From Candidatus Kerfeldbacteria bacterium (lineage in GTDB: Bacteria; Patescibacteriota; Patescibacteriia; UBA9570): 44,218 nucleotides of DNA. Numbering within the stretch: the first letter of the stretch is position 1; the number at the start of each line of letters is the position of its first letter. Under the pieces are notes generated by a model. It was not told the origin of the DNA and did not search any database. It was given only the letters and a program-made list of their open reading frames with translations. This document shows, piece after piece, positions 1 through 43,962 of the stretch. The stretch lies in contig JACPGK010000029.1 of the NCBI GenBank assembly GCA_016182495.1, positions 1 to 44,218 of the forward strand, written 5' to 3'. The translations under genes were made by a program, and so were the position numbers.

Positions 1-676
1 AGTCGCGAATGCAGACGTTGTCGCTGTATTCGCCGTTCTGGTAGTACAGGTGGGGGTCGTTGGTGGCGGTGCCGATGAAGGAGCCGTAGCTGGTCTTCAC
101 CGCAGAGATCTCGCTGCTGTAGTCGGTGCAGTCGATCTGGTGGGAGGTGATGAAGTCGGTGGGGTCGTACCAGTTGGCGGTGTTCGTTCCCCTACCATAG
201 AAGACCCAGGAACCCGAGTAGGATCCGTAGTAGATCCCGAAGTGCAGGTGTGGACCTCCATCGCCGTTTTCATCATCGTAGCCAGCATAGCCGATCACAT
301 CGCCTTGGCTCACGTCGCCGCTGGTCTTGAGACCTTCCGACCTCATGTGTCCACTGACAGAGTACACAATGTCTCCGTCGGGAAGCTCATGCTCGATCAC
401 CACGACGTACCCGTAGCTCTCGTGCCACCCAGTGATGGGAGAAGGCACGATGTGCCCGTTGGCAGAAGCGTAGATGGGATCGAGTGCAGCAGCGGTCGCG
501 TCCTCACCGAGATGCAGGACATCGCTTGAGACCGTATCACCGAAGTCGTAGCCGGTGACGTTGTAGTTGGGGACGGGGAACTCGAAGCTGCTCGCGATGT
601 CTGCCGCTTCAGAGTTGTTGGTGAGCCCGAGCATCACGAAGATGCTGAGCAGGAAGATACGAACGTACCGTTCCAT
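1..676 (-). CDS. Secreted M23 (LytM-type) metallopeptidase, 3' end cut off by the window
   Basis: The reading frame opens at the ATG at 676 and runs off the left edge, so 225 residues are visible. Residues 1-25 form a signal peptide (hydrophobic core, then SEA before ADIA). The M23 zinc site is recognisable: HLGED (H55, D59), GHM (H110) and PHLHFG (H143, H145). Members of this family cut peptide cross-links in peptidoglycan or other glycine-rich peptides outside the cytoplasm. A GGAGAAC ribosome-binding site lies 4 nt before the ATG, unlike nearly every other gene here. The DNA is clearly richer in G+C (roughly 55-62% in lines sampled by eye) than the rest, which suggests transfer or a chimeric contig end. 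The family call is secure; the C-terminal part and the true host are unknown. Confidence 0.85.
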   Translation of the reverse strand, partial: MERYVRIFLLSIFVMLGLTNNSEAADIASSFEFPVPNYNVTGYDFGDTVSSDVLHLGEDATAAALDPIYASANGHIVPSPITGWHESYGYVVVIEHELPDGDIVYSVSGHMRSEGLKTSGDVSQGDVIGYAGYDDENGDGGPHLHFGIYYGSYSGSWVFYGRGTNTANWYDPTDFITSHQIDCTDYSSEISAVKTSYGSFIGTATNDPHLYYQNGEYSDNVCIRD

Positions 677-17416: not shown

Positions 17417-20400
17417 ATGCATGAGCTGTTAGCACCACTTAACGAACCGCAACGACAAGCCGTACTGGCCACCGATGGACCAGTTTTAATTTTAGCTGGC
17501 GCCGGTTCAGGAAAAACCAAAACGTTAATTCATCGCTTGGCCTATTTAATTGCTATAGGTAAGGCTAAGCCTACAGAAATTTTAGCGGTAACGTTTACGA
17601 ATAAAGCCGCTGGAGAATTGCGCGATCGTTTGACTGCACTGTTGAATCACAAAGTGCGTAGTTGGCCGACGTTGGGAACATTTCATAGTGTTTGCGTACA
17701 AATTTTACGTCGCGAAATTGCCACACTGGGCTATAGCAATCACTTTGTGATTTATGATGCTGATGATAGTTTGCGTTTGCTCAAAAAAGTCATCAAAGAT
17801 TTAGGATTTGATCCGAAAACAGTATCACCCACCTTAGTACAGGCCCTGATTAGTCGAGCCAAAAATAGTTTGTACACACCAGACCAGTATGCCAATGTGG
17901 TTGATTCGCCCCTGGAACAAACCGTGGCCCAAGTGTACCAAGGATATCAAACGGAACTACACACTAATAATGCTTTGGATTTTGACGATTTGATTCGATT
18001 AACTGTTGCCTTGTTTAGGGATAACACCTCCATTTTAAAAAAATACCAACAAGCCTGGCGTTATATTTTAGTTGATGAGTATCAAGATACCAACCATGCA
18101 CAATACAGCTTAGTAGAGCTGCTCGCTCAAGAACATCAAAACTTATGTGTGGTGGGCGATGATTTTCAATGTGTTACTCCTAATACTAAAATTAAGATAC
18201 CGAGTGGTTGGAAGCGTGCCAAAGATATTCAAATTGGCGATAAAATTATTGCTGGTGGTGGCAGAAATTCCACGCTCACTACTACGATTAAAAAAAAATA
18301 CAGCCGTACGGTGACAACTGATTTGTTTCAAATAACAACTAAACAAGGTCATACGGTAAAGTTGACACCCAGACATATAGTGTTTGCATCTCTATCAAAC
18401 CAATCGTTATATTATTATGTTTATTTAATGTATCGACAAACCCTAGGCTATAGAATTGGTTTAGTACAAGGTAAACGCACCAGCAGTGGCCGTACGCAAC
18501 ATGGTTTACAAGTACGCGGTAATCAAGAACGAGCTGATAAAATGTGGATTATACGGGTATGTACAAACAAACAAGAGGCACAGTATTGGGAAATGTATTA
18601 TGCTTTTTACTATGGTATTCCCACGACTGTTTTTAGTCCTGATAATCTAACATCAATTGGCCGTCAGGAAATTAATCAATTATTTCAAAATATTAATACA
18701 GCCGAACGAGTTGAACAACTATGCCAAGACCTCTATTTAGATCTAGACTTTCCGCATTATCGCCCGTCTGGAACGACGCGCTTTAAAACTGAACGAAAAG
18801 TTTTACGACTTGATTGGTTTGCCGATACACGACGATCAACTGCTTCGCCGTGGTGTGCTACCCGGGTTGCGTTGCATACTACGAATGCCCAATTGAAACG
18901 AACTGTCGTTAAGCACGGCTATAGTGCTCGACGCTCTAAAAAAAACACCTGGCGCTTAGAACTGACCCGCCTGAAGATTGCTGCAGCTGAACAAGAAGCC
19001 AAAAAATTACAGTTATTGTTGCCTGGTGTTGAAATGGTACGTTCAGCTTGGCTGACAGATACGAAAAAAATGTTATTAATGCCAGCGGCGCACTTACGCG
19101 TTTCGATGTTGTTGCCAATATTAAAAAATAATAAAATTATCGCTGATGAAATTGTTGCTGTAAAAAAAATGCCGTATCATGGCCCGGTGATTGATATAGA
19201 CGTTCAGACAGTTCATAACTACTGTGCCAATGGAGTGATGATACATAACTCTATTTATTCTTGGCGCGGCGCTAATCTGCAAAATATTTTAGATTTCGAA
19301 GATGATTATCCAAAAGCCACCGTGGTGGTGTTAGAACAAAACTATCGATCAACCCAATCTATTTTAGCGGCTGCTAATGAGGTAATTAAGTATAACACTA
19401 AACAAAAAGATAAAACATTATGGACCGAGAATGGCCGTGGTGAAAAAATTATTGTGCAGGTAGTACCAGATGAACGAGCTGAAGGAGAATATATTATTGC
19501 CGAAATTTTTGGGCTCACTACTACTGAACGTGCGGCGGGAGATGAGCTAAATGAAATCCAGTATGTTCGTGAGAATGAACCGACGCCAGCGGCATCAATG
19601 TTAGATCGTATTATGCACAGTCGATCATTTCAACAACAGCAACGGGCTATTCACTGGCAACATTCTATTCAACAACGGTTACGCCAGCTTAAACTATCTG
19701 ATTACGTTGTACTGTATCGTACCAATGCCCAATCGCGAGCCCTAGAAGAATCCTTTTTAAAATACCATGTACCGTACCGGATTATTGGCGGCATCACCTT
19801 TTATCAACGCCGCGAAGTGAAAGATGTCATCGCCTATCTACGAGTAGTGGTGAATCCAGCTGATTGGGTGAGTTTAGAACGAATCATTGCTGTGCCGGCT
19901 CGAGCGCTTGGCCCAAACAGTTGGCAAAAAATTGAACAGGCTTGCCGCCAACAGCATTGTACCTATTTAGAAATTACACCGGAACAATTGCCTAGCCTAC
20001 GCCAACAACAGCGTGAAGCCTTTGCACAGTTCCAAACCATCATGCAAGCCATTACCAAACAAGCCGCTAAGCTTACTCCGTCAGAGACACTTGAATTACT
20101 GTTACGTAAAACTGGCTTGCGTGATCAATATACCAGTAAAAATCGGGATGATCTGGCTCGCTTAGAAAATATTGAGGAATTAAAATCCGTTACTAAGCGC
20201 TTTGACCATACAGTAGGTAGTGACGGTTTGCATGCTTTTTTAGAAGAGGTTAGTTTAGTATCCGATCAAGATCAACTAGATGATACTCACAATGCCGTGA
20301 ACTTAATGACGGTGCATGCGGCCAAAGGTCTAGAGTTTCCGCAAGTATTTATTACTGGTTTGGAAGAGGGTTTATTTCCGCACGCTCGCAGCTTATTTAA

Positions 20401-20587
20401 TCCGATTGAAATGGAAGAAGAACGTCGCTTATGTTATGTGGCCATTACTCGGGCGAAACACCATTTATACTTAAGTTACGCCCGCCAACGCACCGTGTAT
20501 GGTAAAACACAAATTACGGCGCCATCGCGTTTTATTGCCGACATTCCTGAACAATTACTTGATCACCGCGACCCAGACGGTGTATGA
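17417..20587 (+). CDS. pcrA: UvrD/PcrA-type DNA helicase interrupted by an intein
   Basis: This superfamily 1A 3'-5' helicase acts in nucleotide excision repair and in clearing replication blocks. The translated product is 1056 residues, of which 252-611 are an intein; the spliced helicase would be 696 residues, close to the family length. Motif I is AGAGSGKTKT (28-37), motif Ia FTNKAAGEL, motif II VDEYQDTN (about 221-228), and motif III GDDFQ/SIYSWRGA is split by the intein. Motif IV is YRTNAQSRALEE, motif V VNLMTVHAAKGLEF, and motif VI EEERRLCYVAITRAK. The C-terminus is shorter than in typical PcrA and lacks the usual tail. Promoter placement supports the ATG at 17417. It is followed 12 nt later by a membrane-protein gene. 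Confidence 0.95.
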   Translation: MHELLAPLNEPQRQAVLATDGPVLILAGAGSGKTKTLIHRLAYLIAIGKAKPTEILAVTFTNKAAGELRDRLTALLNHKVRSWPTLGTFHSVCVQILRREIATLGYSNHFVIYDADDSLRLLKKVIKDLGFDPKTVSPTLVQALISRAKNSLYTPDQYANVVDSPLEQTVAQVYQGYQTELHTNNALDFDDLIRLTVALFRDNTSILKKYQQAWRYILVDEYQDTNHAQYSLVELLAQEHQNLCVVGDDFQCVTPNTKIKIPSGWKRAKDIQIGDKIIAGGGRNSTLTTTIKKKYSRTVTTDLFQITTKQGHTVKLTPRHIVFASLSNQSLYYYVYLMYRQTLGYRIGLVQGKRTSSGRTQHGLQVRGNQERADKMWIIRVCTNKQEAQYWEMYYAFYYGIPTTVFSPDNLTSIGRQEINQLFQNINTAERVEQLCQDLYLDLDFPHYRPSGTTRFKTERKVLRLDWFADTRRSTASPWCATRVALHTTNAQLKRTVVKHGYSARRSKKNTWRLELTRLKIAAAEQEAKKLQLLLPGVEMVRSAWLTDTKKMLLMPAAHLRVSMLLPILKNNKIIADEIVAVKKMPYHGPVIDIDVQTVHNYCANGVMIHNSIYSWRGANLQNILDFEDDYPKATVVVLEQNYRSTQSILAAANEVIKYNTKQKDKTLWTENGRGEKIIVQVVPDERAEGEYIIAEIFGLTTTERAAGDELNEIQYVRENEPTPAASMLDRIMHSRSFQQQQRAIHWQHSIQQRLRQLKLSDYVVLYRTNAQSRALEESFLKYHVPYRIIGGITFYQRREVKDVIAYLRVVVNPADWVSLERIIAVPARALGPNSWQKIEQACRQQHCTYLEITPEQLPSLRQQQREAFAQFQTIMQAITKQAAKLTPSETLELLLRKTGLRDQYTSKNRDDLARLENIEELKSVTKRFDHTVGSDGLHAFLEEVSLVSDQDQLDDTHNAVNLMTVHAAKGLEFPQVFITGLEEGLFPHARSLFNPIEMEEERRLCYVAITRAKHHLYLSYARQRTVYGKTQITAPSRFIADIPEQLLDHRDPDGV
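18170..19249 (+). mobile_element. In-frame intein in pcrA (360 residues), possible GIY-YIG-like endonuclease domain
   Basis: The intein starts at Cys252 (CVTPNTKIKIPSGW, block A) and ends VIDIDVQTVHNYCANGVMIHN (blocks F and G) before extein Ser612. Block B is GHTVKLTPRHIVF with the TxxH residues. It sits between Q and S of helicase motif III, a conserved ATPase site of the kind inteins favour. No LAGLIDADG motif is seen. Instead YYVYLMYR...GYRIG followed by a downstream Arg-rich stretch and YWEMYYAFYYGIP resembles the GIY-YIG arrangement. All residues for self-splicing appear present: Cys1, block B His, terminal HN, and +1 Ser. Confidence 0.9.
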
Positions 20588-20599
20588 TAACTGACAATT

Positions 20600-21343
20600 A
20601 TGGCAGGAGGAAAAACGAAAAGTGCGTCCAAGGTTAAAACAACCAAGCGGCGTTCAACCAAAGCAACCGCCAAACGGCCTAAACGAGCAGTTAAACGGGT
20701 AGTAAAGCCACGCCGAGTGCGCACGGCTGTACCAATCCCGGTGACCTTGCCCAAGCCAATTGCGGTAACATCATTAGCACCAAAACCGCCATCGCGTTTT
20801 AAACTTGAAGCATTAGTTGACCATCTACTGAACATTACTATTGTAGTGGCTAGTGGTGTGATTGGCGCGGTCACTATCCTTGGTTATGCTAATGTCACCA
20901 ATACTATTATCCAAACTAGTCAAACAGCGGCCACAGTAACTAATCCGGTGCAATTGATAGAACAAACTTTCCCAATAACAGCTGGTCAATTAACGGTACG
21001 TTTTCCAAAACAATGGCAACTGAATGATATTACTACTGAAACAATTGGTTGGGATGTTGTGCAAATACACTTATATCAAACGGATCAAACTACTGTGCTT
21101 GATTGGTTAAAACAAGCTAATATCGCTTACCAATTACGACGAGTAATAGACCCGCTACCAGCTGTACAACTACGACATGGCTTAAGTATTGTTGGCACTA
21201 CCAGTGATACTACCCCAATGACAGCGCATTATTTTATCAGTCATGGCCGAGTGATAGAAATAATCGTACAACATTCCGTACTACCAAACTTGGTTGATCA
21301 ATTTATTACAACAATGACGATAACGAACGAAGACGGGGAGTAG
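20600..21343 (+). CDS. Membrane-anchored protein with Lys/Arg-rich cytoplasmic N-terminus and PsbP-like outer domain
   Basis: The product has 247 residues. Residues 1-50 are strongly basic, with many Lys, Arg, Ala and Thr residues, as in nucleic-acid-binding tails. One transmembrane helix follows at about 77-98. The outer part includes TVRFPKQWQLND (about 133-144), similar to the FKYPEEWEIND segment of the lipoprotein at 769-1392, so it is probably another PsbP-like fold. No catalytic motif is seen. It begins 12 nt after pcrA and is likely co-transcribed. The only AGGAGG in the area lies inside codons 2-4, downstream of the ATG, and so cannot act as its ribosome-binding site. Function is unknown; a basic tail tethered to the membrane could contact DNA or RNA. 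Confidence 0.7.
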   Translation: MAGGKTKSASKVKTTKRRSTKATAKRPKRAVKRVVKPRRVRTAVPIPVTLPKPIAVTSLAPKPPSRFKLEALVDHLLNITIVVASGVIGAVTILGYANVTNTIIQTSQTAATVTNPVQLIEQTFPITAGQLTVRFPKQWQLNDITTETIGWDVVQIHLYQTDQTTVLDWLKQANIAYQLRRVIDPLPAVQLRHGLSIVGTTSDTTPMTAHYFISHGRVIEIIVQHSVLPNLVDQFITTMTITNEDGE

Positions 21344-21723
21344 ATACCACGAAGGGGTACACCACTAGTACACCACACTACTCCCAGGCCCTCTATCGAC
21401 CAATCACGCCACTGTTACAATGGCGCAACTTGATCGAAGGACTCCATCTACAGAACGGCCAGTCACATCTATCCGGCACAACACCGTAATAGTGTGGCAC
21501 AGTAACCGCCCACTGCACCTAGTGCCATGGCACCACGTGTAGTGGGCAGTTGAAGTTGTGAGCTAAACCGAGCTTGGTGGTAGCAAAATTGCAACAGCAA
21601 GCTTATTATTCCGTCTTTATCAAGGACATCGTCTTCAACAACTCAAGATACACCGGCTTGACGAGTATGAAAGAAATAGGGCATAAAAACCGGTAGTTGA
21701 GTTGCTATTCCCACCAAAGGGAA
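21336..21723. ncRNA. Hairpin-rich non-coding region, candidate structured RNA of unknown class
   Basis: No gene is seen between 21344 and 21782. The region is packed with nested inverted repeats. GGGAGTAG 21336-21343 pairs with CTACTCCC 21378-21385, and CGCCA/TGGCG pair around 21415. GCCCACTGCAC 21508-21518 pairs with GTGTAGTGGGC 21537-21547 around the palindrome GTGCCATGGCAC. AGCTTG 21571-21576 pairs with CAAGCT 21598-21603. CAACTC 21639-21644 plus CCGG pair with CCGG plus GAGTTG 21699-21704, and TTCCC 21708-21712 with GGGAA 21719-21723. No RNase P, tmRNA, SRP or T-box signature was found. The strand is undetermined. Confidence 0.4.
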
Positions 21724-21744
21724 CCAAAAAATGTAGCGAATTTT

Positions 21745-21773
21745 TTGAAAAAAGTCAAGTATTATGGTATAGT
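21745..21773 (+). promoter_or_regulatory. Promoter of the coiled-coil protein gene
   Basis: TTGAAA (21745-21750), 17 bp, TGG-TATAGT (-10 at 21768-21773). Nine bases lie between the -10 box and the ATG at 21783. The promoter sits inside the open frame that extends upstream to 21702, which argues for the start at 21783. Confidence 0.75.
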
Positions 21774-21782
21774 AGTCAACCT

Positions 21783-22418
21783 ATGACCGATCAAGGACCC
21801 ACCATTGTACTACCACCTATGTCACAGATGCCGCCAGCTCAAGCGCCAGGGCCGCTGACACCAGAATCACCCGCTGTACCACCATTACCGGCTGGTTTAA
21901 CTACTATTGAACAGCAACGGCAAAATTTGTTGTCTCAACTCAAAGACTCATTGAGTCAGGAAGAAAATCTCAAAACTAATCTCGATCAGTTGAGTCAGGC
22001 AGCTCAAACTATTGAAAGTAAAAAGGCTGAACTGACTAAACAATTAGAGCAACTCAATCAGCAAGAGGCTAACTGGTATTCTCAACACACGGCTCAATTA
22101 CAACCCTTGCTACACAGCCCTGCCGTGACGACTACTGCAGTGCCATCGACCTCACCAACTGTTGCCACTCCGGCCCCGATTGATCGACTCGCCCTAGTAA
22201 AACAAACCTTGGTTGATAAGCTTACGCATGTACCACCACAAGGCATCGCGACTGATCAATTAGAGCGGGTGCTTACTGCCACAGCTGACTTCTTTCTGTC
22301 GCCTGATTTAAATGGAATTATTGTGCGCCATGGTCAAGAACAAATTCACATTGCTAGCGCCGATTTAATTGCCGCCGGTGCGCTGGTTGATTTAACCTTA
22401 CTCCCAAAATTACAATAA
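21783..22418 (+). CDS. Proline-rich coiled-coil protein of unknown function
   Basis: The product has 211 residues. The N-terminal ~40 residues are rich in Pro, Ala and Met (TIVLPPMSQMPPAQAPG). Residues about 41-105 form a long heptad-like coiled coil rich in Gln, Leu, Ser and Glu. A Thr/Pro/Ala linker leads to a small folded C-terminal domain (about 135-211). There is no signal peptide or membrane helix. No known family is recognised. An upstream ATG at 21702 would add 27 residues, but that start lies before the promoter and is rejected. The HEPN gene begins 7 nt after the stop, so the two are probably one transcript. The coiled coil suggests a scaffold or oligomer-forming role. Confidence 0.75.
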   Translation: MTDQGPTIVLPPMSQMPPAQAPGPLTPESPAVPPLPAGLTTIEQQRQNLLSQLKDSLSQEENLKTNLDQLSQAAQTIESKKAELTKQLEQLNQQEANWYSQHTAQLQPLLHSPAVTTTAVPSTSPTVATPAPIDRLALVKQTLVDKLTHVPPQGIATDQLERVLTATADFFLSPDLNGIIVRHGQEQIHIASADLIAAGALVDLTLLPKLQ

Positions 22419-22425
22419 GTTTACT

Positions 22426-22809
22426 ATGAATGTGACGGCGTTAATGCACTACTGCCAGGTGCAATCAGCAAAAAAATGGAATACTGCTACAGCCTTATTG
22501 CGATCAAAACGATACGCTGATTGTTTATTCTTTTGTCATTTGACTTTAGAGTTTGCTCTTAAAGAAAAGGTAGTGAAAGTTACACAAAAACCTTTTCCCA
22601 TGACTCATGATTTGTCAGACTTAGCAATAAAAGCTCATTTGATGCTAACGACTGAACAGAAAGAGCAGTTGGCTATCATTAATACATTCAATATAGCCGG
22701 ACGATATGATGATTATAAATTGTCATTTTATAAAAAAGCTAAGTCGGTATTTACAAAAAAATATTTTGATATTACAAACCATTTTTTAGTATGGCTAAAA
22801 AAAATATAA
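22426..22809 (+). CDS. HEPN-domain protein, partner of the adjacent nucleotidyltransferase
   Basis: The 127-residue all-helical protein matches the HEPN pattern: WNTATALLRSKRYADCLFFCHLTLEFALKEKVV (the A..LL..G.Y..A.F..H.A.E..LK theme), a middle THDLSDLAIK segment and a last helix after AGRYDDYKLSFY. HEPN proteins paired with MNT nucleotidyltransferases act as toxin and antitoxin in type VII systems, or as substrate-binding partners. The RNase motif Rx4-6H common in toxic HEPN proteins is not evident, so toxicity is uncertain. The gene overlaps the nucleotidyltransferase start by 19 nt. Composition is more AT-rich than its neighbours, hinting at transfer. Confidence 0.8.
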   Translation: MNVTALMHYCQVQSAKKWNTATALLRSKRYADCLFFCHLTLEFALKEKVVKVTQKPFPMTHDLSDLAIKAHLMLTTEQKEQLAIINTFNIAGRYDDYKLSFYKKAKSVFTKKYFDITNHFLVWLKKI

Positions 22810-23120
22810 CTTCAAAAAAAAGTAAACGCTTTGCTCAAGAATATGTTGAATATCTTCAGGTTGAACATCATCTACCAATTAAGCAAGCGTATCTATTTGG
22901 ATCGTACGCCAAAAAAAAACAACGTCATTGGAGTGATATTGATGTATGTATTATTTCTCCCGATTTTAAAAAAATTGATCCGCTAGCGTACTTATGGACG
23001 AGACGGCGTGACATTGATATCGAACGTGGCATTGAACCGTATGGCATAGCACCGGAAGATTTTGTTGAAATCAACCCAATTGCCTATGAAGTAAAAAAGT
23101 ATGGTATTACTTTACTCTAG
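22791..23120 (+). CDS. MNT-type minimal nucleotidyltransferase (likely antitoxin)
   Basis: The 109-residue protein has the minimal nucleotidyltransferase core: GSYA (37-40) and SDID (48-51), with the metal-binding Asp49 and Asp51, then a beta-strand VCIISPDF. In known HEPN/MNT pairs this protein modifies the HEPN partner with AMP and silences it. The N-terminus is lysine-rich. The gene overlaps the HEPN gene upstream, and its 3' end overlaps the convergent uvrC stop by 14 nt. All catalytic residues seem present, so this half of the pair looks active while the HEPN half lacks its usual RNase motif. Confidence 0.85.
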   Translation: MAKKNITSKKSKRFAQEYVEYLQVEHHLPIKQAYLFGSYAKKKQRHWSDIDVCIISPDFKKIDPLAYLWTRRRDIDIERGIEPYGIAPEDFVEINPIAYEVKKYGITLL

Positions 23121-30087: not shown

Positions 30088-31737
30088 TTAGTAGACTTCT
30101 TTCTGATAGCATTGCTCACAATACACTATCTCTGGGCGGTTTGGCACAAATGATGTCATGATAGTAACGCCACATTTCATACACTGCCGTTGCCATAACC
30201 GTAAGGGGTTGCGTCGACGTAAACGATCATAGTGCCGACAATTCGGACACAGCTGTGGTAGAGCCAGGTTTCTGGATTGATAATAGATTATTTCCGCTGG
30301 CAATATTTTATAGACGCCAATACACTGTTCATTGCAATGCGCCTGATGAGCGCATGTTTTAATATCGCGATTGTTAGCAATATGAGTACTGTTGGGCTGA
30401 TCACGCCAACGATACCCCTGCGCTTTGGCCTGGTTTGATGTCAACGTAAAATATTCTTGCGCCACCGTTTCATTATAAGCAAACGGTGATAATTCTGTCG
30501 GAAAAAATTCACCAAAGCCATAGCTACGACCAGTTTGATCGCGATACGGTTGTTTCATCATGTGTTGTTGTATTTGAGGCAACAATTGTTCATAGTCTGC
30601 TTTACTGTATTGTTTATTTAAAATACAGTATTGTGCACCGCGTAAACCAACGCAGCCGAAACAATCTTTACAATTATGACAATTATAACTGTACCACATG
30701 TTGGAACTGCTCCAGACTACCAATACAAAAGCAATGCGTGAACCAGCCACACCAGCATCAACTGCTTCATACAGTAAGTCGGCTTTGGCGCCAACACCAT
30801 AGCCATCATAGACATCGGTCATGGCACCGCCGTTGACACAATATTTACAATCCGACACACCATCCTTTAAACCAAAACATTCCGTGCAATTGTGAGCGTA
30901 CTGCAAATTATCACCGGTGGCATTATCAGAATTATAAATTGAAGCATAACGATGAATGGATTGTTGTTTTATCGCCATGAACTGATTATGCACCGCTGCT
31001 AACCCTGCTGTTGTATCAAGCTGTAAGGCTTTCACTTTAGCATGATAGTCAGCTTCACTATATGGTTCATTAAAAATATAAAAAGACTTATTACGCAAAT
31101 TGACGCAACCGATACAGTTAGAACAGCCACGGCACTCGTATAACCACAGGCTATCGCGACAATTTTCGGAATTCTGCACCCACTGACAGTTATATACATG
31201 ATCAGAATTAATACAATCACTGGATAATTCACTATTACTAACAGCCAGTAAATCGTAGGAATCGCGGCAATACCATTCTTGCTCACAATAAGCTAAATGT
31301 TCACCGCCCCATGAAGCAAATGTCAAATAACAATCCTTCAGTTCACCAACATGATTGCAGTAATTTGAATTAACACATTTATTATTGAACACTGCTGGTT
31401 GCGGTACGTGTCGGAATAGTTCACGAAATTGCTCAAAAAAAGTTTTCTTAAAATCATAGTCGCTACCATAGTCAAATGGGTTCCAACCATCGCTCCACCA
31501 ATAGTCGCGATCATAAATAGTCAAACCACTGTCGGGCGCAAAAATAGTGATGATTGATTTATGGGTAGCGGCACATTGACTAGTATAGAGTGAGCGTTCA
31601 TTGCGCCAAGACATCCGGCGCTGCATGCGGCATACATGACAAAATGTTGGTGGCGGCACGGCCATTTTTTTATAAAATTCTAAATCATCAGCTCCGAGCG
31701 TAAATGTTTGTTGACAGTTTTGACAGGTATTGGTCAT
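30088..31737 (-). CDS. Cys-rich zinc-ribbon repeat protein, third of three tandem paralogs
   Basis: The product has 549 residues with an unusual density of Cys. The N-terminus is a zinc ribbon (TCQNCQQTF...CHVCR) followed by QRRMSWRNERSLY. The core has many NCxxC and CxxC units, including two copies of a block C..C..C.GC(V/I).LR....(F/Y)CILN..YS..DYE (the first with FYIFNEP), suggesting internal duplication. The C-terminus is another ribbon (CPNCRH...CMKCG...YCEQCY). It is probably cytoplasmic, since there is no signal or membrane helix. Metal binding, probably zinc, is likely. The family occurs widely in CPR genomes without a known role, in my recollection. Its ATG directly abuts the stop of the previous paralog. 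Confidence 0.8.
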   Translation of the reverse strand: MTNTCQNCQQTFTLGADDLEFYKKMAVPPPTFCHVCRMQRRMSWRNERSLYTSQCAATHKSIITIFAPDSGLTIYDRDYWWSDGWNPFDYGSDYDFKKTFFEQFRELFRHVPQPAVFNNKCVNSNYCNHVGELKDCYLTFASWGGEHLAYCEQEWYCRDSYDLLAVSNSELSSDCINSDHVYNCQWVQNSENCRDSLWLYECRGCSNCIGCVNLRNKSFYIFNEPYSEADYHAKVKALQLDTTAGLAAVHNQFMAIKQQSIHRYASIYNSDNATGDNLQYAHNCTECFGLKDGVSDCKYCVNGGAMTDVYDGYGVGAKADLLYEAVDAGVAGSRIAFVLVVWSSSNMWYSYNCHNCKDCFGCVGLRGAQYCILNKQYSKADYEQLLPQIQQHMMKQPYRDQTGRSYGFGEFFPTELSPFAYNETVAQEYFTLTSNQAKAQGYRWRDQPNSTHIANNRDIKTCAHQAHCNEQCIGVYKILPAEIIYYQSRNLALPQLCPNCRHYDRLRRRNPLRLWQRQCMKCGVTIMTSFVPNRPEIVYCEQCYQKEVY

Positions 31738-33333
31738 TTAATATATCTCTTTAGCATAACACTGCTCACAATACACTATTTCTTTACGGTCTGGCGAATA
31801 AGTTGATTGTACGGTTATACTGCAACGGACACATTGACGATTCCATAGCTGCCGAGGGTTGCGTAATGTCATACGCCAAATATGGCGGCATTTAGGACAG
31901 ATACGCGGTAACGGTAGTTGCTGGGCTTGATAAAACGCTCGTTCTTCATTAAGGAATTTAAACATTTTATAACACTGCTGACACTCACTGGTCTGTTCCG
32001 ATCTGGTGTTGGTGATTCTATTTGATTCATCAAACCAGCGAAAACCTTGAGCTAATGCCGTGATTTTATCGAGCGGGAAACAGATTTGCGCTGTAGTTTC
32101 ATTATACCCAAAGCAGGCTAGTTGTTTTGGGAAAAATTGACCCCATTCACTTGTTCGCCGCATCTGTTGAATAATATTTATTCGTAACTTTTCATATTCG
32201 TCGAGACGATAACGTTTATTTAAAATGCAATATTCTTGATGACGCAAACCAATACTACCAAAAATATTTTTACTATTGAGAATAAATTCGCTATAAGTGA
32301 CATCAGACGAATCGATCACAAAAAAAGAGTGCTGGATATTATAAGCTTGATATGTGGAGATAGCGTTATAACAGAGCTCGCTATTATCGCCCTGCAAACT
32401 GCTATTCAAACAATCTCGACTGTTCACAGCAAAAATAACATTGGTCATCTGTTCACTAGCACTGACATCAAAACAATGATGGCAGCGTTGGGAATTTTTG
32501 ATATAATCGCCGCTGCACTGTTCACACGATACAGTATTGGCATATTTTACTTTGCGTTGCTGCCGTAGTTGTGACCAAGCTTGAATATTATGTTGTTGTT
32601 GTTCATAACGATCGTTAAGCAATTGTTTTTTCTTTTTTAAATAATCTTCTTTGGAATACGGCTGATTATAAATGTAATAAGATTTATTTATTAAATTAGT
32701 TGATAATATACACTCGGTACAACCACTGCAATCGCTGATAAAAAAACAATTGGTACAATTTTTTGAACTGCTGACAAATTGACAACCATAACATTGATCG
32801 CTATCTAACAACATGTAACATAGCTCATTCTTATTACTATAATCCAAATCCAATGAATTTTTATTGCGCATGCCAAGGGTATTAAACATAACATCTTCAT
32901 TCCAATCACCACCGAATACTAAATAACTATTCTTGTTGCCATAGGTCATATTGCAATACTCACTGTTGTCGCCTTTGATATTTGATAAGGCTAAACGCGG
33001 CACAACGGCTTGCAATTCTGCGAATTGCTCAAAAAATGATCTACGAGGATTATAATCTCGGCCGTAATTGAGTGGATTCCAGATGTCACTATACCAATAG
33101 TTACTTTTATATACCGGATAGGAGGTATTGGGTTGATAAATTGAAATGATATCTTCACCGCTACCATCACATTTGCGTTGATACAAGTTCCATTCACTAC
33201 GAAAACACAGTCGTTGTTTTTGATCACAAACAAAACAAAGCCCTGTCGGTTCAGTCTTAAACCTTTGATAATGGTCGCGTTCCGGTTGCGCCAACTGAAA
33301 AGTTTGACTGCAATTTTGACAGGTCTTAGTCAT
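31738..33333 (-). CDS. Cys-rich zinc-ribbon repeat protein, second of three tandem paralogs
   Basis: The 531-residue product has the same plan as its neighbours: N-terminal ribbon CQNCSQTFQL...CFVCDQKQRL, the WNPLNYGRDY...FFEQFAEL segment, a Cys-rich core (GCQFVSSSKNCTNCFFISDCSGC), then the CILNKRY.LDEYE block and C-terminal CPKCRH...CVRCS...YCEQCY. In this copy several core Cys of the other two are Ser or Phe, so metal loading may differ. Its ATG follows the TGA of the first paralog with no gap, and its TAA is followed directly by the ATG of the third. Such perfect abutment suggests coupled, balanced translation. Function is unknown. Confidence 0.8.
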   Translation of the reverse strand: MTKTCQNCSQTFQLAQPERDHYQRFKTEPTGLCFVCDQKQRLCFRSEWNLYQRKCDGSGEDIISIYQPNTSYPVYKSNYWYSDIWNPLNYGRDYNPRRSFFEQFAELQAVVPRLALSNIKGDNSEYCNMTYGNKNSYLVFGGDWNEDVMFNTLGMRNKNSLDLDYSNKNELCYMLLDSDQCYGCQFVSSSKNCTNCFFISDCSGCTECILSTNLINKSYYIYNQPYSKEDYLKKKKQLLNDRYEQQQHNIQAWSQLRQQRKVKYANTVSCEQCSGDYIKNSQRCHHCFDVSASEQMTNVIFAVNSRDCLNSSLQGDNSELCYNAISTYQAYNIQHSFFVIDSSDVTYSEFILNSKNIFGSIGLRHQEYCILNKRYRLDEYEKLRINIIQQMRRTSEWGQFFPKQLACFGYNETTAQICFPLDKITALAQGFRWFDESNRITNTRSEQTSECQQCYKMFKFLNEERAFYQAQQLPLPRICPKCRHIWRMTLRNPRQLWNRQCVRCSITVQSTYSPDRKEIVYCEQCYAKEIY

Positions 33334-34959
33334 TCAATATATTGCTCGTTGGTAACACTGTTCACAATATATCATTTCCGGTCGATCGGGCGAATAGGCT
33401 GTATCCAGTTGGCGCTGACACTGTTGACAGTGGCGCTGCCATAATTGTCGCGGACGCCGTAAGCGTAAACGCGCTAAATGACGACAGTTAAAGCATTGAT
33501 CTGGTTTTGGTAACTGCATGGTCTGATAAAATTGTAGCTCGGCGGTGGTGCAGCGAAACAATTTTTTACACGTGGCACAAGTGATGGCTGTTGGATTATC
33601 GGTACGAGTGGCATCTGGCAAATGATCGTTCCAATTAAACCCCTGATCAAGGGCTTGCTGACGAGTTAATGGAAAATAATCTTGAGCAATAGTTTCATTA
33701 TAACCATAAAATGATAAATTGGACGGTAAAAATCGACCCCATTGCCCAGATTGTTGCAATTGTTCAATGATAATGTTTGTTAATCGCTGATATTCGGCTG
33801 GTGTATATTGTGTATTCAAAATACAATATTGTTTATTGCGTAAGCCGATGCAACCAAAACAATCTTGCACAGTATTAAAACAAAACTGACAATATGTTAA
33901 ATTCTTGATATTCCACCACACCGTCGTTGAGCCATAAATATGATACCCACTCACACAACCCATATTTTCTAAACACAGTTCATTGCCGCCCGAATACGAT
34001 GCATCGTAAATTTCTTTATTATTTTTCACAGAAAACTGTAAATACTGACACTGCTCTGAATCGGTAGTATCAAAACACTCACTACACTGGCTGGAACGCA
34101 CAATATAATCGCCGGTGCATTGTTCGCTATTCAATTGGTAAGAAAACACCGCTGGAATCATACAACGCCAATCATTAAAGGTCTGCCAGGCTTTTTGCCA
34201 TCCATCTGGCTGATCAATCTGCCAACGTTGTAATTCTGCTTCGTAACCAGCTTGATCATATTGCTTATTCAAAATACAAAATTGTTTATTGCGTAAACCT
34301 TTACACATAAAACAATTACGGCAATTCCGACAATCTTCTAGAAAAGCCGAGTCTAAACAATGATCACACATGTTGCCATGGATCAACCGATAACTATTGG
34401 CGCAATCAACACAATCATAACATAGTTCACAGTTTTCAATTTGCATGGTATCAACACAATTCCTGGACTTTGATAATTGTGTACCATAATAACAATCCTC
34501 GTTGTCGCCAAAGGCATTGCTAAAAATCATATAGCAATTTTTGTTATTGGCCGTGTAGTGGGTGTAAGCAGAATTGATGCTGTTGGTATTCATTAAAGCA
34601 ATGCGCGGTACGCGAGCATGCAATTCAGCATATTGTTCAAAAAATGGACGTTCTACATCAATAGGTTGAGCATACTCTGCAGCTGACCAACGATCACTCC
34701 ACCAACATTCCTGACAATAAATGATAAAAGGCTGCGGTTTTAATACTGTGCCATGTGGCGCATAGGTTGTAATAACTGATCTATGACAGAGCGTGCAAGT
34801 TGATGGGTATAACATTCGCTCATTACGCCATGCTAACCGTCTCTGCTGCCGACAGTGTGGACATAACGTTGGTGGCGATACAGTCATTTTTTTATAAAAT
34901 TCCAAATTGTCCAGAGTGATAATGAACGTTTGGTGACAATTTTGACATTGTTGGGACAT
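33334..34959 (-). CDS. Cys-rich zinc-ribbon repeat protein, first of three tandem paralogs
   Basis: The product has 541 residues and is the most Cys-rich of the three. It opens CQNCHQTFII...LEFYKKM...CPHCRQQRRLAWRNERMLY. The core contains NCELCYDCVDC, DCRNCRNCFMCKGLRNKQFCILN and later DCFGCIGLRNKQYCILN. It ends CFNCRH...CQQCQ...YCEQCY. The two GLRNK(Q)(F/Y)CILN blocks mark an internal repeat. The regular spacing of Cys along a repeating core suggests a beta-solenoid or ladder lined with metal sites, an inference from pattern only. It starts 3 nt after the RelE-like toxin stop and probably shares its promoter. Confidence 0.8.
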   Translation of the reverse strand: MSQQCQNCHQTFIITLDNLEFYKKMTVSPPTLCPHCRQQRRLAWRNERMLYPSTCTLCHRSVITTYAPHGTVLKPQPFIIYCQECWWSDRWSAAEYAQPIDVERPFFEQYAELHARVPRIALMNTNSINSAYTHYTANNKNCYMIFSNAFGDNEDCYYGTQLSKSRNCVDTMQIENCELCYDCVDCANSYRLIHGNMCDHCLDSAFLEDCRNCRNCFMCKGLRNKQFCILNKQYDQAGYEAELQRWQIDQPDGWQKAWQTFNDWRCMIPAVFSYQLNSEQCTGDYIVRSSQCSECFDTTDSEQCQYLQFSVKNNKEIYDASYSGGNELCLENMGCVSGYHIYGSTTVWWNIKNLTYCQFCFNTVQDCFGCIGLRNKQYCILNTQYTPAEYQRLTNIIIEQLQQSGQWGRFLPSNLSFYGYNETIAQDYFPLTRQQALDQGFNWNDHLPDATRTDNPTAITCATCKKLFRCTTAELQFYQTMQLPKPDQCFNCRHLARLRLRRPRQLWQRHCQQCQRQLDTAYSPDRPEMIYCEQCYQRAIY

Positions 34960-37570: not shown

Positions 37571-37588
37571 ACTTTTCCAGTTTGGTTA

Positions 37589-37617
37589 TTGACAGTAATT
37601 CTGGCCTTGTATAAGAT
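37589..37617 (+). promoter_or_regulatory. Promoter of groES-groEL
   Basis: TTGACA (37589-37594), 17 bp, TAAGAT (37612-37617); TATAAG at 37610-37615 with a 15-bp spacer is the alternative. The start point would fall inside the CIRCE operator. Confidence 0.75.
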
Positions 37618-37620
37618 AGC

Positions 37621-37647
37621 TTAGCACTCTCGATTTAAGAGTGCTAA
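37621..37647. promoter_or_regulatory. CIRCE operator (HrcA-binding site)
   Basis: TTAGCACTC, 9 bp, GAGTGCTAA: an exact match to the CIRCE consensus. It overlaps the transcript start of groES-groEL, so the HrcA repressor should control the operon and release it on heat shock. hrcA is not in this window. Confidence 0.97.
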
Positions 37648-37680
37648 TTAATCATTAAATCTAGTCAACTTATCACGACT

Positions 37681-40059: not shown

Positions 40060-41100
40060 TTACTCCTGGGGACGATTTTCAGTTTCATGTACCGCCACCA
40101 TAATATCTTGACGTAATCGATCCATCACCTCAACATGTTCACGTAAGTATTGGCGAGCACTTTCTCGACCAACTCCTAATTTTTCTTCTTTATAGGTATA
40201 GGTGTTGCCACTCTTTTCAATTACGCCAAATTGCACACCGGTATCTAGTAAATCTCCAGCTATCGAAATGCCTTCATTGTACATGATATCAAATTCAGTA
40301 GTACGAAATGGTGCCGCCACTTTATTTTTTACAATTTTGGCATTAACTCGATTACCAATCACTCGATCACCTTGTTTAATTTGAGCACTGCGGCGCACTT
40401 CAATTCTTACCGAGCTATAAAATTTCAAAGCCACACCACCAGTGGTGGTTTCGGGATTGCCAAACATCACTCCAATTTTTTGACGTACTTGATTAATAAA
40501 GATAACCGTAGTATTACTTTTGCCGACAATGGCTGTTAGTTTACGCAAGGCTTTACTCATTAAACGAGCTTGCAAACCCATTTGAATATCGCCCATTTCT
40601 CCTTCGATTTCTGCTCGGGGTGTTAGGGCAGCCACAGAATCGATCACAATCAAATCAATTCCGCCAGAGCGTACCAATGTTTCAACGATATCTAAGGCTT
40701 GTTCACCCGTATCGGGTTGAGAAATCAATAATTCTTCTATCTTTACACCAATACGTTTAGCGTATTCTGGATCAAGGGCATGTTCAGCATCCACAAAAGC
40801 AGCCACTCCGCCCATTTTTTGGATTTCACTAACGATGTGTTGGGTGAGAGTAGTTTTACCAGAAGCTTCTGGTCCATAAATCTCAACTACTCTACCACGG
40901 GGTACGCCACCAATGCCTAAAGCTAAATCGAGTGAGATGCAGCCAGTGGGTATAGCCTCTACTTTCATTTGACTAGCTTCGCCGAGCTTCATAATGGCAC
41001 TGTTGCCAAAACGTTCACGAATTTGCGCAATGGCTGCTGCCATGGCTTTATTTTTTCCAGTACCGACGGGTTCTTCTGTTTTTTTAGCTATTTTCGACAT
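40060..41100 (-). CDS. recA: Recombinase RecA
   Basis: RecA forms filaments on single-stranded DNA, drives homologous recombination and triggers the SOS response where present. The 346-residue protein has Walker A GPEASGKT (76-83), Walker [11 protein letters not shown], the L1/L2 DNA-binding loop regions ([26 protein letters not shown]) and the C-terminal domain, with an acidic/polar end. All main motifs are intact. It lies 41 nt after the RodZ-like gene, in the ftsK series. I found no clear promoter or SOS box directly before it, so it may depend on upstream transcription. No Shine-Dalgarno site is seen. Confidence 0.98.
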
Positions 41101-41141
41101 ATTAAATGATGTGAAATAATTAACTATGCTTGATACGCTAC

Positions 41142-41822
41142 CTATAAATTAGATGATGATACAATAGTATGGTATTGAACATTACTTTTACTGCGTTTGG
41201 TTTTAGCCATCATCTTAAACACATTGGCACCAGGCTGTAACACTACATCAATACTAAAGCTACCATCGGCTTTTACTGGCACAGCTTGATCGTTAATGGC
41301 GACAGTAGCTTCTGGCACAGTTTGTCCGGCAATGGTAATAAAACGCTGATCAGCCGCCACCTGGTTTGGTAAAGGAACAATTTCTAAAATGGGTGGTTGA
41401 ATAATATTCGTCACCTCAAATACAAAATAGGTGCTGACTAAAACAATGAAAAAGACTACTCCCACCATCATGATGATTTGCGTAACTTGCAACGGCCGCT
41501 TAGTGAGGTGGCGACGCAAAGCAGGGATTGATTGTGCTTGGTTATAAACCGTTAATTCTTGGTCGAGTACCTGACTGATTGATCGTGGGTTCAACTGTAA
41601 AAATTTGGCGTATTTTTTAACATAATTTTTAATAAACACACTACCAGGTAGGGCAGTATAGTTACCTTGTTCAAGGGCTAATAAATATTCAACCCGAATA
41701 TGAATGGCCTCGGCAATCTGCTGTAGTGATGCTCCAGTATCATTACGTCGACGCTGCAAACGTTCCCCCACCGTTTCACTCCCTGTTAAAGATCGCTGAC
41801 TAAAATCGGTCAGTGTCGTCAT
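41142..41822 (-). CDS. RodZ-like protein: cytoplasmic HTH, membrane helix, outer Ig-like domain
   Basis: The 226-residue product begins with a helix-turn-helix of the RodZ/HTH_25 type ([43 protein letters not shown]), with the conserved [16 protein letters not shown] that follows. A transmembrane helix lies at about 115-138, and the outer part (about 150-220) is a glucodextranase/Ig-like domain ([22 protein letters not shown]). RodZ links MreB to the cell-shape machinery; this version has the same layout but no mreB is nearby. The start at 41822 overlaps the ftsK stop by 23 nt; the open frame extends to 41870, a less likely start. It probably works in cell-shape or envelope control. Confidence 0.82.
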
Positions 41823-43962
41823 GATTGGTATCATCTTCATTATCGTTAAAATTAGTATCATCAGCCTCATCGAGTTGTCCTAAAATCTCACGTGGTTTAG
41901 CGCCATCAGCCGGACCAATAAACCCTTGTTCTTCTAAAATATCCAGCAAGCGAGCCGCCCGAGCATATCCAACCCGTAACCGCCGTTGTAGTAAGGAGGC
42001 AGAAGCCTTTTGAGCCTGAACAATAATTTTTTTGGCGTCCGGTAATAACGTATCTTCATCGCTACTATCATTCCAGGCTTGGGGCATAACACTGCTGCTT
42101 TGTACAGTAATCACTTCGTCATCATATTCAGCGGTGCCTTTACTTTTCAGGTGATTAACTACTCGCATAATTTCTTCTTCTTGCACAAAGGCTCCTTGAA
42201 TACGTTTTGGCTTCGATGATTCTGCACTGACGTATAGCATGTCACCTCGACCGAGTAATTTTTCTGCACCGGCTGCATCCAAAATGGTACGTGAGTCGAT
42301 GAGAGAAGCCACATTAAAAGCGCAGCGTGAGGTAATGTTTGCCTTAATTAAACCAGTAATTACATCAACTGATGGCCGTTGAGTCGCTAACACTAAATGA
42401 ATACCAACCGCCCGAGCCATTTGGGCTAAACGCACAATGGCTGCTTCTACTTCGCGAGGGGCTGATGCCATTAAATCAGCCAACTCATCAATCATAAACA
42501 CGATGTACGGCATACTGGCCTGCGGATGGCTGGCATTATAGCCAGCAATATCACGTTTCTTCGCATTAGATAATACTTCGTAGCGTCGATCCATTTCATT
42601 AACACACCACTTTAAAGCATTGATTGTTTTTTGCACATCGGTGACCACTGGCGTGAGTAAATGTGGAATATCATTATACATGGTAAATTCAACTCGTTTA
42701 GGATCAACCATCACTAATTTTAAATCATCGGGTCCATTTTGATACAGTAAACTTAAAATAATCGTGTTAATGCACACCGACTTACCCGAACCAGTGGCTC
42801 CCGCAATTAATAAATGTGGCATAGCACCAAGATCGGCTGTAAACGACTTACCAGCCACATCCCGGCCCAGCAACAACGTTAAGTTTGACTGACGTTGTTT
42901 AAAATTATCGGCCTCGAACAGTTCGCGCAAACCTACTCGAGCGGCAGCTACATTTGGCACTTCTACCCCAATCAGTGATTTACCGGGAATAGGAGCTTCA
43001 ATACGAATAGGATGAGCCGCTAAGGCTAGGGCAAGATCGTTCTGTAATGACACTATTTGAGCTACTTTTACACCGCTAGCTGGTTTAAAGGTATATTGGG
43101 TGACTGTTGGCCCCACACTGACAGGGCCCATCTCGACTGCAATATCAAAATTGAGCAAAGTTTTATGAATAACATCTTTATTACGATTAATATCCCCGCT
43201 GGTTGGTTGACCGCGTTTATTGGATAACAAATCGAGCGGTAAATCAATTTTGCGGTGCTGTTTGGCTACATGAATCAGTTCCATTTGTTCAGGTTCAGTA
43301 GTATCTGTTTTCGGCTGCTGTCCGGTTAAGGTTTTATGTGAAAAAACCACCACGTCATCTTCATCGTCTGCTTGAGTCGATGTTTGAACAGTTTGACTGG
43401 TGGCAACTGCTGCCCGTTCTCGAGCAATCACTAACCGCTGTTTGGCACTAGAAAATAAGGCTACCACAAAACGTAGCACCTTACCGATAATGGTTGTGGC
43501 CGGTATCTGCTGCACCAAACGTTCAAGTGATGTATTAAAAACAATCAAAATAGCCATCACGATCATGGCACAAAAAATGATCACGGCTACAGCGCTGCTG
43601 GAAAATTGATGAAATAAATAGGTGGCGGCGGTACCAACGACACCAGCACTATGGGGTTGCATAATATCAAGTAAGCCAAAAATACCGCTGGCTAACAGCC
43701 CCAGCCCAACCAAATCAACTGGTTTAATGGTGTGATCGGTGGGATACAATAAACGATAGACCAAAATGAAAAAAATGATCGGTATTAAAAATCGACCATA
43801 GCCAATAGCACTGGTCAACAATCGGTTAATAACCTCACCAACAGTGCCCGCTAAACCAAATAAGCTAAAAGCGGTAATTAAGCCAGCGGCCAATAAGGCC
43901 ACAGTAATGATACCGCGTTGGGTATCGGGAGAGGTGGTGGGAGGAACAATTTTTTTCGGCAT
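41800..43962 (-). CDS. ftsK: DNA translocase FtsK
   Basis: FtsK pumps chromosomal DNA through the division septum and coordinates segregation with division. The product has 720 residues from the ATG at 43962. An upstream ATG at 44004 is rejected because the TGC-TATAGT box (43973-43981) lies after it. Four transmembrane helices occupy about residues 15-145. A flexible linker follows, then the motor domain with Walker A GATGSGKS (388-395) and Walker B VFMIDELAD. The C-terminal gamma winged helix (LLQRRLRVGYARAARLLDILEEQGFIGP) reads KOPS-like signals. Length is close to SpoIIIE/short FtsK. It overlaps the RodZ-like gene start. Confidence 0.96.
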   Translation of the reverse strand: MPKKIVPPTTSPDTQRGIITVALLAAGLITAFSLFGLAGTVGEVINRLLTSAIGYGRFLIPIIFFILVYRLLYPTDHTIKPVDLVGLGLLASGIFGLLDIMQPHSAGVVGTAATYLFHQFSSSAVAVIIFCAMIVMAILIVFNTSLERLVQQIPATTIIGKVLRFVVALFSSAKQRLVIARERAAVATSQTVQTSTQADDEDDVVVFSHKTLTGQQPKTDTTEPEQMELIHVAKQHRKIDLPLDLLSNKRGQPTSGDINRNKDVIHKTLLNFDIAVEMGPVSVGPTVTQYTFKPASGVKVAQIVSLQNDLALALAAHPIRIEAPIPGKSLIGVEVPNVAAARVGLRELFEADNFKQRQSNLTLLLGRDVAGKSFTADLGAMPHLLIAGATGSGKSVCINTIILSLLYQNGPDDLKLVMVDPKRVEFTMYNDIPHLLTPVVTDVQKTINALKWCVNEMDRRYEVLSNAKKRDIAGYNASHPQASMPYIVFMIDELADLMASAPREVEAAIVRLAQMARAVGIHLVLATQRPSVDVITGLIKANITSRCAFNVASLIDSRTILDAAGAEKLLGRGDMLYVSAESSKPKRIQGAFVQEEEIMRVVNHLKSKGTAEYDDEVITVQSSSVMPQAWNDSSDEDTLLPDAKKIIVQAQKASASLLQRRLRVGYARAARLLDILEEQGFIGPADGAKPREILGQLDEADDTNFNDNEDDTNHDDTDRF

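Follow-up and report, generated by a model that had tools for sequence, protein, structure and literature searches.

A hairpin-rich gap beside uvrD in a Patescibacteria-like genome as a possible minus-strand orphan-gene unit without its reading frame

We interpret the hairpin-rich gap at positions 21336-21723 of the window (the whole 44,218-nt stretch of DNA analysed here), with moderate confidence and on the strength of sequence comparison, as a minus-strand orphan-gene unit that has lost its reading frame and retained its promoter and its 5' and 3' RNA structures. The unit would correspond to an orphan gene found in the same slot of sister genera; it would be divergent from a coiled-coil protein gene and convergent with a gene associated with uvrD. 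RNA polymerase would be expected to start near 21723, and the transcript would open with a hairpin similar to the 5'-terminal hairpins that slow mRNA decay, continue through a leader with a CCCUAUU motif, and finish in a purine-left hairpin that would also close the convergent mRNA. Between these ends the reading frame would have been lost (there is no Shine-Dalgarno sequence and a stop follows after 7 codons), leaving a body that is shortened and decayed and still folds. The synteny, the strand, the promoter, the position of the 5' hairpin and the leader motif were directly observed to be common to the window and its sisters. The absence of an ORF from the gap was likewise observed.

The original prediction had been that the region encodes a large structured RNA. 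A structured transcript is indeed likely, but the density of hairpins is unexceptional, and a large structured non-coding RNA is not the reading that fits best, because the comparison favours the minus strand and at least two of the sister slots are protein-coding. The striking "structured RNA" becomes instead a case, open to testing, in which an orphan gene is without its frame and its regulatory ends persist. Should those ends turn out to be conserved in their own right, the slot would offer a way into the regulatory RNA of Patescibacteria.

Gene neighbourhood and the sister slots

On one side of the gap lies the gene for a hypothetical membrane protein that follows uvrD (20600-21343, plus strand); it is convergent with the minus-strand unit and has homologues after uvrD in three sister genera (G001-G003). 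On the other side is the coiled-coil protein gene (21783-22418, plus strand), which has a promoter of its own (TTGAAA-17-TATAGT, 21745-21773). The order uvrD-hypothetical-slot-coiled coil-uvrC-uvrA is maintained in all three genera, whose UvrC proteins show 63% identity to that of the window. A search identified the G001 coiled-coil gene as a homologue; the G002 and G003 counterparts were assigned from position and protein type, and one additional gene is present at that place in G003. The window shares both synteny and strand with these orphan-gene slots, each of which holds, on the strand that corresponds to the minus strand of the window, a transcription unit in which a sigma70-like promoter precedes an open frame (192 aa in G001, 146 aa in G002 and 322 aa in G003).

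Codon periodicity is strong in the G001 and G003 slots, and their open frames exceed those of shuffles in length; by these sequence measures both slots are clearly protein-coding. In the G002 slot periodicity is absent overall, the low-GC phase moves to another frame part-way along, and a stop interrupts the frame that suits the first part; the gene looks frameshifted or itself decaying, unless the assembly is in error. Given this phase switch and the stopped upstream frame, the loss seems to be a recurrent one. The three orphan proteins gave no family match of note in Pfam or PHROGs and no similarity to one another was found, so that homology of the sister ORFs is unproven. AlphaFold prediction of the G001 orphan without an alignment returned a pLDDT of 43, too low to be informative.

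A DNA search for the gap in 57 relatives plus the order yielded only self-matches or short chance matches, scans of genome and viral contigs with the neighbouring protein gave no match, and a UvrC scan for near relatives recovered only G001 (L064). No genome with alignable DNA at the gap was found, and the comparison is therefore limited to four genera. Viral contigs contained nothing notable when compared with the G003 orphan protein, and no report on such slots was found in the literature. At the level of the order, none of the neighbourhoods of G005-G009 contains the leader motif; near uvrD, G005 carries a different orphan ORF, which has a similar 3' hairpin and no leader motif.

Other features of the window were recorded along the way. 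The UvrD/PcrA-like helicase encoded at 17417-20587 (plus strand) has 1056 aa and is about 350 aa longer than the versions of G001-G003 (700-705 aa); the extra block, with GDDFQ before it, HN at its end and SIYSWRG after it, resembles an intein. At 22426-23120 (plus strand), a HEPN and nucleotidyltransferase (MNT-like) gene pair with Pfam hits is inserted ahead of uvrC, next to the coiled-coil gene; it is absent at that place in the sister genera and resembles a HEPN-MNT toxin-antitoxin pair. Farther off are a GC-rich gene at 1-676 (minus strand; 57% against 43% for the genome) that is cut by the contig end and whose product matches endolysin/metallo-endopeptidase families, three paralogous cysteine-rich proteins (531-549 aa) encoded in tandem at 30088-34959 (minus strand), and, at 37588-37680 (plus strand), a CIRCE-like inverted repeat, TTAGCACTC...GAGTGCTAA, immediately past a promoter and before groES-groEL.

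Promoter, leader and terminal hairpins of the proposed minus-strand unit

A consensus scan placed a sigma70-like promoter, TTGACT-17-TACATT (9 of 12 matches), at 21730-21758 on the minus strand; promoters at the same place in G001-G003 combine TTGACA, at the same 17-nt spacing, with TATGGT, TATATT and GATAAT. The 5'-terminal hairpin, TTCCC-TTTGGT-GGGAA followed by TAG, occupies 21705-21723 (minus strand), 6 nt past the -10 box. A hairpin of at least 5 bp starts at exactly this offset in all four slots, the G002 hairpin having been read by eye. The arms are TTCCC/GGGAA in the window and G002, TCCCC/GGGGA in G001 and TCCTC/GAGGG in G003, such that two of the five pairs are altered on both sides between genera, in a compensatory manner. 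Per-slot shuffle frequencies for a hairpin at +6 multiply to 8.5e-7, a figure that includes an offset chosen post hoc and a G002 value taken at a mis-set offset.

The leader motif ATGCCCTATTTC (21673-21684, minus strand) contains CCCTATT, the sole 7-mer common to the four leaders; any shared 7-mer arose in 1 of 3000 shuffled leader sets. CCCTATT lies 47 to about 95 nt past the -10 box and about 50-60 nt ahead of the start codon. The wider motif pattern had 19 matches in ten genomes, and the context of promoter and hairpin accompanied only the slot copies; the other GCCCTATTTC copy in this genome (contig C22) was set aside as lying within coding sequence. Promoter, hairpin 6 nt past the -10 box and CCCTATT leader motif thus occur together in the window as they do in the sister slots. 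In this genome alone, a second leader hairpin is predicted at 21639-21704 (minus strand; CAACTCAA/TTGAGTTG, inner ACCGG/CCGGT), with CCCTATT in its loop. In three of the four leaders, moreover, no other segment complements the 3' arm of the 5' hairpin as well as CCCTATT does, with P values of 0.004 for G002 and 0.036 for the window; the pairing is not significant in G001 and is absent in G003. Pairing of the leader motif CCCTATTTC with the 5' hairpin is put forward as a lead only.

Where the sister genes have their start codon, the window has an ATG (21606-21629, minus strand), 100 nt from the -10 box and with a motif-to-ATG spacing that matches G001, from which seven codons (MSLIKTE) run to TAA TAA. 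There is no Shine-Dalgarno sequence, nor an intact ORF, and we therefore file the window as a decayed or RNA-only counterpart rather than as an intact member. Beyond the short shared features, alignment of the window leader with those of the sisters was insignificant.

The opposite end of the unit is formed by a hairpin with inner hairpins (21336-21385), GGGAGTAG/CTACTCCC, which is common to both convergent ends. Its outer stem, at 21336-21343/21378-21385, uses the stop codon of the upstream gene, as had been predicted. In all four slots a purine-left hairpin, which in the window is this stem, stands at the 3' end towards the convergent gene, and its sequence differs in each genome. Elsewhere in the genome, contig C21 at about 40770-42250 carries a GC-rich (61%) ORF of 414 codons whose leader is rich in hairpins and whose purine-left hairpin at the 3' end (GGGGAGGAGAGC...GCTCTACTCCCC) resembles the one of the slot unit; similar GC-rich islands recur across the genome.

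Fold strength and coding content of the gap

The inverted repeats that had been described within 21336-21723 were found at the coordinates given. The best pair, 21508-21518/21537-21547, has arms of 11 nt with one G-T pair among them, and these arms are part of a longer imperfect palindrome in the body of the gap, which the repeat finder placed at 21504-21551 (24-nt arms, 83%, centre GTGCCATGGCAC). Several long-range pairs from the same repeat finder are probably chance matches. The region folded better than 100 of 100 dinucleotide shuffles on both strands (z of -4.0 for plus and -4.2 for minus), which is more than chance would give. As a background we took, in stretches, 760 kb of the same Patescibacteria-like genome and examined gaps of at least 250 nt that lack an 80-aa ORF. 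There were 74 such gaps, many with z below -3, and in this genome-wide scan (24 shuffles) the 358-nt gap under study reached a z of about -2. Because many of the 74 fold equally well or better, its hairpin density is not exceptional, and in this genome hairpin density by itself is a poor signal of an RNA gene. The 245-nt body of the gap, folded as the minus strand, gave z values of -2.8 to -3.6 and 150-nt windows elsewhere in the 44-kb window averaged -0.5, with 8% below -2, so that the body is still above background; the coding slot of G001 folds as strongly as this body.

The most strongly folded of the gaps examined (L180 16445-16834, contig C20; z of -10.5 and -16) has a long terminator-type hairpin, then several more, and precedes a small ssb-like gene beginning MDLNKVTLIGNL. 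Within the window, a second hairpin-rich, ORF-free gap of about 600 nt (1392-2001; z of about -3 on both strands) lies upstream of a putative lipoprotein gene.

The gap has no long ORF: on either strand the longest run without a stop is 57 codons, which is not above that of shuffles. The proposed lack of known RNA signatures was borne out. None of the Rfam 15 covariance models matched 21336-21723 above its family cut-off, nor was a family found by permissive search, of which the best match, a nematode snRNA (E 0.17), was judged to be chance. RNase P and tmRNA were ruled out as identities of the gap, the copies of the genome being located on other contigs (C1:189-550 and C12:71203-71600, respectively). 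The 245-nt body had no codon periodicity, no excess open frame and no similarity to the sister slot proteins, and a plus-frame similarity between the gap and the G001 protein continues across stop codons and was put down to chance. The gap lacks, in other words, the residual similarity or codon periodicity by which a former ORF is recognized as a pseudogene; the similarity test has little power here, since the sister proteins are themselves not alignable.

Alternative readings and comparison with known systems

Transcription of the unit, decay in preference to replacement, and the roles of the hairpins are inferred. It weighs against decay that a decaying body should lose structure, but this body keeps its z of -2.8 to -3.6; the lack of a detectable coding remnant, the insignificance of the leader alignment past the short shared features and the unproven homology of the sister ORFs weigh against the decayed-gene reading as well. 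The structure of the body, together with the retention of the promoter and of both ends and the complementarity, seen in three of the leaders, between the motif and the hairpin's 3' arm, would suit a functional minus-strand non-coding RNA of about 390 nt that arose from the slot gene by ORF loss, with leader motif, body hairpins and 3' element acting as RNA, for example in a switch between CCCUAUU and an arm of the 5' hairpin. We consider this doubtful, however: ORF-free gaps that fold equally are common in the genome, the coding version in G001 folds as strongly, and the arm-motif pairing fails in G003 and is insignificant in G001. The frequency of such folds among gaps and the weakness of the slot and leader alignments to the sisters (for the best, 3 of 100 shuffles were equally good) could equally be taken to mean ordinary intergenic DNA, in which a terminator-like hairpin upstream and a promoter downstream enclose an unrelated spacer and the likeness to the sisters comes from chance and post hoc choice. 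That, too, is unlikely, as promoter, fixed-offset hairpin and shared 7-mer coincide in four syntenic slots.

A further reading, which we hold to be rather improbable, makes the slot cassette-like: an RNA frame that comprises the promoter, the 5' hairpin, the CCCUAUU leader and the 3' element would be kept across a Patescibacteria family as the functional, conserved part, and the insert would be swapped for unrelated orphan ORFs or, here, for a non-coding structured RNA. If the large structured RNA of the original prediction lay on the plus strand, it would be made by processing of the uvrD operon transcript. The plus strand does fold with a z of -4.0 and a long-range helix encloses most of the region, but the consensus scan gave no promoter-like site just upstream and no terminator-like site, the sister slots favour the opposite strand, and two imperfect helices retain more wobble pairs on the minus strand, all of which makes this a very improbable reading and the least likely among those that invoke RNA. 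That the minus strand encodes a short peptide, from the 7-codon ORF or the 57-codon open run, is hardly credible: the ATG is placed at the sister gene starts, but it has no Shine-Dalgarno sequence, and the open runs are no longer than those of shuffles.

Read as a unit that has lost its frame, the gap invites comparison with three known arrangements. Like the 5'-terminal stem-loop mRNA leaders exemplified by ompA, papA and aprE (in references given in PMC3997798), it has a stable hairpin that lies a few nucleotides from where the transcript is expected to begin and is placed alike in four genera; in contrast to them, no coding sequence follows the hairpin, and a stabilizing role here is putative. 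Units that meet tail to tail, or that are inverted within an operon, are known (PMC7821165). As in the convergent genes with overlapping 3' ends described there, two opposing units finish at one structured element, and a unit in the opposite orientation stands amid co-oriented genes; the purine-left hairpin of the window differs in having no U tract, so that intrinsic termination is not evident. Compared with pseudogenes of lineage-restricted orphan genes, the body of the window has no detectable coding remnant that ties it to the sister proteins; as in such pseudogenes, the frame is lost, the regulatory ends are retained, and the slot is limited, as far as seen, to one family.
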